Positions 59,878 to 60,689 of a stretch of 64,000 nt of DNA are shown here, in pieces. The notes under the pieces were generated by a model, which was given only the letters and a program-made list of their open reading frames with translations, was not told the DNA's origin and did no database searches. Position numbers and translations under genes: made by a program. Source of the DNA: Bacteroidia bacterium (GTDB taxonomy: Bacteria > Bacteroidota > Bacteroidia > NS11-12g > UBA9320); contig JAGYJG010000001.1 of NCBI GenBank assembly GCA_018402155.1, positions 2,066,501 to 2,130,500 on the forward strand, given 5' to 3'. Positions within the stretch are counted from its first letter, which is position 1; each line of letters starts with the position of its first letter.

Positions 59878-59889
59878 CCGCCACGGCGG
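59878..59889. repeat. GC-rich palindrome P1 (CCGCCACGGCGG)
   Basis: A GC-only stem CCGCC/GGCGG in otherwise AT-rich DNA, 20 bp before tRNA-Phe. It resembles the two palindromes between the GIY-YIG copies. Confidence 0.6.
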
Positions 59890-59909
59890 TAGAACATTGA
59901 TAACTAAAT

Positions 59910-59982
59910 GGTGCGGTAGCTCAGTTGGTAGAGCAAAGGACTGAAAATCCTTGTGTCGGCGGTTCGATCCCGCCCCACACCA
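59910..59982 (+). tRNA. tRNA-Phe (GAA)
   Basis: The full cloverleaf can be drawn: D-arm GCTC/GAGC, anticodon arm AAGGA-CTGAAAA-TCCTT with anticodon GAA, variable loop GTGTC, and T-arm GGCGG-TTCGATC-CCGCC, with discriminator A and no encoded CCA. The acceptor stem GGTGCGG/CCACACC has a C-A mismatch at the fifth pair (59914 with 59977). A terminator follows 7 nt later. Confidence 0.93.
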
Positions 59983-60224
59983 CAGACTAAGCCTTGCGGT
60001 TAGCGAGGCTTTTTTTATTATGGACTACCGAGTTTACATACTATACTCATTGACAGCAGAGAAAAGCTACGTGGGGTACACCAATGATATAGGTCGAAGG
60101 ATAAGGGAGCACAACCAAGACCTACAACGATCGTTTACATCAAGATTTAGACCTTGGGCTGTTATACATACTGAGGAGTATGCTACCAAGCATGAAGCAA
60201 TGATACGAGAGAAGTGGTATAAAA
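59971..60224 (+). repeat. 254-bp direct repeat, copy 1 (tRNA-Phe 3' end to GIY-YIG)
   Basis: It matches 60350-60603 at an offset of 379 bp with a single difference seen (T for G in codon 48). It starts within the T-stem of tRNA-Phe and ends at GIY-YIG codon 68. Confidence 0.95.
59990..60016 (+). terminator. tRNA-Phe terminator
   Basis: The stem AGCCTTGC/GCGAGGCT (one G-T pair), loop GGTTA, and seven T residues form an intrinsic terminator. The GIY-YIG ATG follows 3 nt after the T tract. Confidence 0.85.
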
Positions 60225-60286
60225 CAGGAGTGGGGCGAGAGGCAAAAGCAGTGATTATAACAAAATATTTGGGAGAAAAAGAGTAA
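60020..60286 (+). CDS. GIY-YIG endonuclease-family protein, copy 1
   Basis: The 88-residue protein is a stand-alone GIY-YIG domain: VYI at 5-7, YVG at 17-19, GRRIREHN (25-32) with the catalytic arginine, and KHEAMIREKWYK (58-68) with the metal-binding Glu59. The family end is present (GREAKAVI). There is no DNA-binding partner domain, as in the UvrC-like small GIY-YIG (YhbQ/UPF0213) group. A longer frame reaching back to 59951 would run through the tRNA and is rejected. The gene has no promoter of its own after the tRNA terminator, so expression would need read-through. Confidence 0.88.
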   Translation: MDYRVYILYSLTAEKSYVGYTNDIGRRIREHNQDLQRSFTSRFRPWAVIHTEEYATKHEAMIREKWYKTGVGREAKAVIITKYLGEKE

Positions 60287-60297
60287 AAAGAGCGGTA

Positions 60298-60311
60298 TTC
60301 GCCGCGGCGAA
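60298..60311. repeat. GC-rich palindrome P2 (TTCGCCGCGGCGAA)
   Basis: A perfect 14-bp palindrome 11 bp after GIY-YIG copy 1 and directly before a duplicated tRNA-Phe anticodon arm. It shares the core CGCCGCGGCG with P3. Confidence 0.8.
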
Positions 60312-60334
60312 AAAGGACTGAAAATCCTTGTGTC
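60312..60334 (+). pseudogene. tRNA-Phe fragment (anticodon arm and variable loop)
   Basis: It matches tRNA-Phe 59935-59957 exactly, that is, the anticodon stem-loop with GAA plus GTGTC. The D-arm and 5' acceptor strand are absent, and the T-arm is replaced by palindrome P3, so this is not a working tRNA. Confidence 0.85.
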
Positions 60335-60348
60335 CCCGCCGCGGCGGG
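60335..60348. repeat. GC-rich palindrome P3 (CCCGCCGCGGCGGG)
   Basis: A perfect 14-bp palindrome that takes the place of the first 13 nt of the T-arm in the duplicated tRNA fragment. The repeat of the tRNA 3' end resumes immediately after it. Confidence 0.8.
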
Positions 60349-60349
60349 C

Positions 60350-60603
60350 CGCCCCACACCACAGACTAAGCCTTGCGGTTAGCGAGGCTTTTTTTATTAT
60401 GGACTACCGAGTTTACATACTATACTCATTGACAGCAGAGAAAAGCTACGTGGGGTACACCAATGATATAGGTCGAAGGATAAGGGAGCACAACCAAGAC
60501 CTACAACGATCGTTTACATCAAGATTTAGACCTTGGGCTGTGATACATACTGAGGAGTATGCTACCAAGCATGAAGCAATGATACGAGAGAAGTGGTATA
60601 AAA
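60350..60603 (+). repeat. 254-bp direct repeat, copy 2
   Basis: This is the second copy of 59971-60224. It contains the tRNA-Phe acceptor 3' strand, the terminator and the first 68 codons of GIY-YIG. Confidence 0.95.
60369..60395 (+). terminator. duplicated tRNA-type terminator
   Basis: This is an exact copy of the terminator at 59990-60016, inside repeat copy 2 and just before the second GIY-YIG start. Confidence 0.8.
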
Positions 60604-60689
60604 TAAGTTATTCTAAAATACTATTGCCCGTTAGAGAAGTTCATTCAGTCAATCAGTCTTTGCTACCAAAGAAACTCTTACCATTATAG
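60399..60689 (+). CDS. GIY-YIG endonuclease-family protein, copy 2, altered C-terminus
   Basis: Residues 1-68 are identical to copy 1 at the protein level (the one base difference is in a valine codon, GTT to GTG). From residue 69 the frame runs into unrelated DNA and ends with ISYSKILLPVREVHSVNQ... at 96 residues. The last helix and strand of the GIY-YIG fold are therefore lost, although Arg and Glu59 remain. It is probably a decaying or truncated copy, and may be inactive. Confidence 0.7.
   Translation: MDYRVYILYSLTAEKSYVGYTNDIGRRIREHNQDLQRSFTSRFRPWAVIHTEEYATKHEAMIREKWYKISYSKILLPVREVHSVNQSLLPKKLLPL

Follow-up and report, generated by a model that had tools for sequence, protein, structure and literature searches.

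A tandem repeat at the tRNA-Phe gene of the window, the 64,000-nucleotide stretch of Bacteroidia bacterium DNA that we analyzed, belongs, judging from sequence comparisons, to a large Bacteroidota family and is not a private duplication. In this family, a small GIY-YIG nuclease gene sits beside a tRNA gene, and a broken copy of the same tRNA, often with a GC palindrome in place of an arm or half arm, lies beyond it. We think it moderately likely that the element is a minimal tRNA-resident unit whose nuclease acts on hairpins, drives recombination and tandem growth, and is probably selfish. It looks like an undescribed minimal selfish element; if this is true, it would be among the smallest self-spreading units known, with one protein of ~85 residues and a tRNA that serves as both shelter and landing site. 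The window locus contains the following features:

59878–59889, no strand: third GC palindrome, CCGCCACGGCGG, upstream of the intact tRNA-Phe
59910–59983, plus strand: intact tRNA-Phe (GAA), same sequence as the tRNA-Phe of empty-site congeners
59970–60224, plus strand: direct-repeat unit, copy 1 (tRNA-Phe 3' end, terminator, and GIY-YIG gene)
59990–60016, plus strand: intrinsic-terminator-like hairpin and T run in the tRNA-to-nuclease interval, identified by eye
60020–60286, plus strand: GIY-YIG nuclease gene, copy 1, complete, 88 aa, PF01541
60292–60362, plus strand: displaced tRNA-Phe copy, non-functional, with palindromes substituted at two places
60298–60311, no strand: palindrome TTCGCCGCGGCGAA in place of the entire D arm (tRNA positions 10–25)
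60335–60348, no strand: palindrome CCCGCCGCGGCGGG in place of tRNA positions 49–60 (T-arm 5' strand and loop)
60349–60603, plus strand: direct-repeat unit, copy 2
60399–60689, plus strand: second GIY-YIG ORF, 96 aa, diverged past 60603, with the native C-terminus lost

The direct repeat is 255 nt long, its copies are spaced 379 apart (59970–60224 and 60349–60603), and their sole mismatch is T60163 vs G60542. The initial annotation had given this unit as 254 bp with one base difference and the same spacing, which holds except for the length. It had also placed the start of the unit inside the T stem of tRNA-Phe and listed the tRNA 3' end, the terminator, and a GIY-YIG endonuclease gene as its contents; our coordinates and PF01541 matches agree. 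The two ORFs match PF01541 with E values of 3e-16 and 1.3e-15, the protein has the conserved catalytic residues Y6, Y17, R27, H31, and E64, and these two are the only small GIY-YIG genes in the 2.49 Mb genome.

What lies between the repeats had been described as a bare anticodon arm enclosed by two GC palindromes. Both palindromes are present around the arm (60312–60334, identical to 59935–59957), but the displaced tRNA copy is larger than claimed, beginning at about tRNA position 4 (GCGGTA, 60292–60297). The D-arm sequence GCTCAGTTGGTAGAGC has been exactly swapped for TTCGCCGCGGCGAA, and 12 nt of the T arm, GGCGGTTCGATC, have been swapped for CCCGCCGCGGCGGG; congener G002, whose tRNA-Phe locus is occupied, carries a palindrome similar to CCCGCCGCGGCGGG in the T arm there. 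Because the window copies differ at 1 of 255 nt yet the tRNA between them is remodeled, palindrome exchange was either rapid or part of the duplication, and arm exchange would appear to be fast relative to point mutation. The third palindrome, CCGCCACGGCGG, could tentatively be viewed as a decayed left-hand unit; at the equivalent position, locus L172 reads GGTGCGGTA, TCCGCCACTGGCGGA, and AAAGGA in succession.

Homologs were found in 27 of 58 relatives, and family-alignment matches in 263 of 392 sampled Bacteroidota genomes. We analyzed 137 distinct clusters of small GIY-YIG genes from Bacteroidota, and 91 of them have a tRNA within 300 bp on the same strand, compared to one on the opposite strand. 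In 71 clusters (class A) the gene lies downstream of the tRNA, usually with 34–75 nt between the tRNA 3' end and the domain, and most of these loci share the terminator-like hairpin between tRNA and gene. In the other 20 (class B) it lies just upstream, with the ORF stop codon mostly inside the 5' part of the tRNA. Linkage was seen at 34 of 66 loci with full flanks in a sample taken at the order level, for the most part by generic Pfam and BLAST queries (PF01541 and the window protein), and among 52 of 55 top hits across the phylum, a proportion inflated because the profile that retrieved this set was itself built from tRNA-linked proteins. A separate named sample (Flavobacterium, Chryseobacterium, Epilithonimonas, Aquimarina, and others), collected by a pattern scan with one Met-type protein, has a same-strand upstream tRNA-Met in 49 of 59 loci, most at 37–64 nt. 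The initial annotation had envisaged a small tRNA-targeting mobile element, with many small GIY-YIG genes directly after tRNA genes, flanking palindromes, and empty sites in close relatives; relatives bear out all three, as detailed below for the palindromes and empty sites.

A displaced part of the same tRNA, defined as an exact match of at least 11 nt on the far side of the gene, is present in 74 of the 91 tRNA-linked clusters. Strict palindromes (arm ≥6, loop ≤5; terminators and the intact tRNA left out) occur in 54 of these 74 copies, in 1 of 74 shuffled copies, and in 11 of 725 control windows (1.5%), which excludes a chance origin. Each exchanged segment corresponds to a cloverleaf arm or to half of one, and the junctions are isotype-specific: 37/38 and 48/49 for Met, 9 and 26 for Phe, 26/27 and 44/45 for Ala, 30 and 44–48 for Val, 23–25 and 34–36 as well as 50–52 and 61–64 for Asn, and 50/51 and 59/60 for Asp. 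Class B Arg and Glu loci show a pure insertion at 22. The Phe D-arm junction of the window, 9 and 26, recurs in L172, from another host family, where the swap reads GGTGCGGTA, TCCGCCGCAGGCGGA, and AAAGGACTG in succession. About 40 Flavobacteriia loci share the Met junction, in which CATA is followed by TCCGCCNNGGCGGA and cacaggttcgag; the order CATA, TCCGCC..GGCGGA, cacagg is near-invariant and the loop is variable. L172 also has a left-hand unit, matching its Phe swap, upstream of the intact tRNA, and L186 has one of this type for tRNA-Met. We observed that the left-hand units at L186 (811–960), L007, and L008 consist of a promoter, the tRNA 5' part, and a palindrome and immediately precede the intact tRNA's promoter, the palindrome in L186 being the same as its right-hand one.

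By sequence, the nearest solved structures to the nuclease are UPF0213 (1zg2, 1ywl) and SLX1. It has a PF01541 GIY-YIG domain with the catalytic Tyr, Tyr, Arg, and Glu, and 86–91 of the 91 tRNA-linked proteins retain the catalytic residues. It scored 21.8 bits against TIGR01453 (SegB and GIY-YIG homing endonucleases), below the family cutoff of 56.05. Nothing else is encoded in the unit, whose sole gene matches PF01541/PF10544: HUH tyrosine transposases and site-specific recombinases are absent from it. Rfam matches in 20 loci were to tRNAs only, with no group I intron, and the tRNA is uninterrupted. The nuclease is under purifying selection, with a median dN/dS of 0.115 among Met-type genes (347 non-independent pairs), a value that also fits a host function.

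On a tree of the 137 proteins, which has few columns and many unresolved forks, nuclease clades follow tRNA isotype, with 34 isotype changes compared to a shuffled mean of 66 and minimum of 58. Host family changes 44 times among the tRNA-linked proteins (61 when shuffled, minimum 55), and the Met clade spans ten host families. Palindrome type changes 7 times against a shuffled minimum of 17, a result confounded with isotype. The tRNA-linked proteins are mostly separate from 24 other small GIY-YIG proteins, nearly all of them non-tRNA. As a side observation, non-tRNA small GIY-YIG genes at L028 and L031 (and, by eye, L024, L027, L029, and L030) lie between direct repeats, TGTCATCCTGAGTGTTTT and CCCTTCGACTACGCTCAGGGTAC, forming another repeat–nuclease pairing.

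Two or more gene copies are found in 38 of the 137 clusters. Tandem arrays hold 3–8 units, about 365 bp apart in the 8-unit case, and the array units that we compared (L181–L184 and L186) are near-identical. At the tRNA-Phe locus most congeners are empty, with no gene in 15 of them; G002 keeps a broken-frame copy, placed between tRNA-Phe and the gene that in several congeners comes immediately after tRNA-Phe, and a decayed stub remains in G011. The tRNA-Met locus of G266 carries five element copies, and the orthologous locus is empty in 28 relatives (81–95% identity). At this locus G565 is also empty, yet an element-type terminator is present, which would fit excision. The intact tRNA is identical in occupied and empty-site genomes, while the flanks differ. 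We saw no excised, circular, or transferred form of the element. We rejected a phage or plasmid vehicle, since searches gave no match in phages and one weak match each in plasmids and viral contigs. We likewise rejected the idea that the palindrome is a recombination barrier, as long identical repeats (tRNA 3' part and terminator) persist beside it.

Palindromes also occur away from the elements. Across 101 genomes of one genus, inferred to be Flavobacterium, the pattern TCCGCCN{0,4}GGCGGA is found 0–22 times per genome, and the reversed pattern is almost absent. G535, G527, G536, and G504 have dispersed copies. Dispersed palindromes were located within RNase P RNA, two SAM riboswitches, and five Flavo-1 RNAs, and also next to 16S rRNA and at the tips of terminators. 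Pairing between the two flanks of a copy exceeds that of re-paired flanks (6.58 vs 5.11, maximum 5.86 of 200), and many dispersed palindromes therefore sit at hairpin tips. In G266, by contrast, all five exact copies are inside the element array. Our first palindrome–gene correlation (Flavobacterium, p 4e-9) was to some extent circular, every element having a palindrome of its own, and it weakened once the elements' own copies were removed: at least two extra palindromes are present in 8 of 16 genomes with the gene and 13 of 85 without it (Fisher 0.004; MWU 0.04; phylogeny ignored). The analogy to REP/RAYT pairs drawn by the initial annotation thus gains some support, in that the palindrome is dispersed, often at hairpin tips, in some element-bearing Flavobacterium genomes; the modest correlation and the confinement of every exact G266 copy to the element weaken it. 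Within the genus of the window, TCGCCGCGGCGA, allowing up to 2 mismatches, is not enriched over its reversed control, and we rejected the window palindrome as a genome-wide repeat of that genus.

Two further observations concern these palindromes and repeats. At loci L340, L345, L363, and L365 of G535 and G527, TCCGCC..GGCGGA palindromes fall within the matches to RNase P RNA and to the SAM riboswitch aptamer, and a short way ahead of 16S rRNA. A repeat of ~95 bp running from AAAACGCAATGCCGCT to GCACGTGCGTTTATT (G000:C1:405419, 955624, 957742, 959862, 1406675, and 1421833; L036, L037, and L040–L043), with TCCGCC..GGCGGA in each of three copies about 2.1 kb apart, resembles the integron attC sites of a cassette array. 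Near these attC-like repeats, a different GIY-YIG domain lies in a 733-aa open frame (G000:C1:960966-961151, L004).

How might such an element work? We propose a unit of about 300–450 bp, comprising part of a tRNA and the gene for a one-domain GIY-YIG nuclease. After insertion, the host tRNA would be left whole, and the displaced part past the gene would be a broken tRNA copy, with a GC palindrome where one arm or half of one had been. The layout could be produced by a single crossover between the intact tRNA and a circle made of the palindrome-broken tRNA part, the terminator, and the gene, and the reverse crossover would restore an empty site. Tandem arrays would grow by recombination between the long direct repeats (tRNA part and terminator). 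The element would stay at one tRNA isotype, and relatives would gain and lose it; its isotype fidelity may reflect homologous recombination through the tRNA part that it carries and not the specificity of the nuclease, so this crossover model would explain both fidelity and arrays with no special specificity of the enzyme. The UPF0213/SLX1-like nuclease most likely cuts hairpin or palindromic DNA, be it the element's palindrome or single-stranded tRNA arms, and would thereby initiate the recombination by which the element is copied. A structure-specific cut is favored by the enzyme's kinship with SLX1/UPF0213 and by the exchange of hairpin for hairpin, and because the tRNA of occupied genomes is unchanged, the palindrome or single-stranded hairpins seem likelier substrates than the double-stranded tRNA gene. 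A bolder version, to which we give a real but less than even chance, is that this is a minimal mobile element of a new class: its structure-specific GIY-YIG nuclease would cut hairpins in DNA, both tRNA arms and its palindrome, and in this way move whole hairpins, keep the tRNA copy alive, and seed palindromes genome-wide into the hairpin tips of functional RNAs (RNase P, SAM riboswitches, and terminators). Such a DNA process on hairpins, to our knowledge not described before, is suggested by the hairpin swaps in tRNA copies and by the palindromes within the RNAs of RNase P and SAM riboswitches.

Taken alone, the window shows what resembles a tandem duplication whose second copy is truncated, and one could read it as a plain local duplication of tRNA-Phe and its neighbor gene in which the second tRNA decayed by ordinary mutation. 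We consider this very improbable. The same layout is found at many tRNA isotypes and in many host families, what looks like decay is a set of exact palindrome exchanges whose positions are specific to the isotype, and copies diverged at just 1 of 255 nt already show it; the recurrence of the D-arm swap in L172, in another host family, largely refutes this explanation. The initial annotation had reserved it for the case of one gene in every relative and a palindrome absent elsewhere, which is not what the relatives show. A nuclease that serves the host and is merely parked at tRNA genes, for example to restrict incoming single-stranded DNA in transformation, would account for the strong purifying selection and for the small GIY-YIG relatives that sit between repeats away from tRNA loci. 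It fits poorly with the patchy occurrence among close relatives, the tandem arrays, the decayed stub in G011, and the broken frame in G002, and we regard it as quite unlikely.

Homing of the SegB type, in which the enzyme cuts intact double-stranded tRNA genes, repair from the occupied allele copies the gene, and the same breaks generate arrays, is also unlikely in our judgment, if a little less so. Empty alleles do exist, and phage SegB, a GIY-YIG enzyme, often adjoins tRNAs and drives tandem amplification of tRNA and segB (PMC13096335). Such an enzyme would cut its own host, however, because the tRNA of occupied genomes is identical to that of empty sites; for the same reason, homing of the classical kind, where the insertion abolishes the cleavage site, is not evident, and the TIGR01453 score falls short. 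The strongest competitor, though still on the improbable side, is that independent REP-like palindromes colonize hairpins, that displaced tRNAs are just dispensable hairpins, and that the GIY-YIG gene is uninvolved. This would explain the dispersed copies in RNase P RNA, SAM riboswitches, and Flavo-1 RNAs, near 16S rRNA, and at terminator tips, and the many palindromes in G536 (17) and G518 (13), which have no close full-length Met-type gene. Against it stand the restriction of all five exact G266 copies to the element array, the near-invariant Met junction, the tracking of protein clade by palindrome type (although confounded with isotype), and the excess of extra copies in genomes with the gene (with phylogeny ignored). 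We prefer the hairpin-acting, tRNA-resident element, which would also offer a new candidate enzyme for explaining the spread of REP-like palindromes.

Among known systems, the Bacteroidota proteins are about half the size of SegB, a larger enzyme of phage genomes, which also speaks against homing of the SegB type. SegB of phages T4 and T6 is a free-standing GIY-YIG homing endonuclease and resembles our element in lying beside tRNA genes, of many isotypes, and in the tandem amplification of the tRNA and nuclease segment; the sections of that report consulted (PMC13096335) describe no fixed position relative to the tRNA, no tRNA copy with a swapped-in palindrome, and no isotype-specific clades. 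A search of the open literature found no paper on GIY-YIG genes at bacterial tRNAs, and a 2006 survey of GIY-YIG enzymes does not mention them. Integrase-based tRNA elements likewise insert into a tRNA and restore the gene; here there is no integrase, the unit is a few hundred bp, and palindromes are exchanged in the displaced part. UPF0213 and SLX1 are the closest in sequence among solved structures, but SLX1 works in host repair, together with a partner. REP/RAYT systems likewise pair a small nuclease gene with short GC palindromes scattered over the genome, a scatter seen here in some genomes but not in G266; they use a tyrosine HUH transposase instead of a GIY-YIG enzyme, do not reside at tRNAs, and have far more dispersed copies than the 0–31 per genome here. 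Ssn of Neisseria is a one-domain GIY-YIG single-strand nuclease with a cognate palindromic repeat, NTS (TCCCGC..GCGGGA-like), and restricts incoming single-stranded DNA in transformation. We know of no tRNA linkage for Ssn. Ssn and NTS may be the closest relative of the palindrome–nuclease pairing described here.
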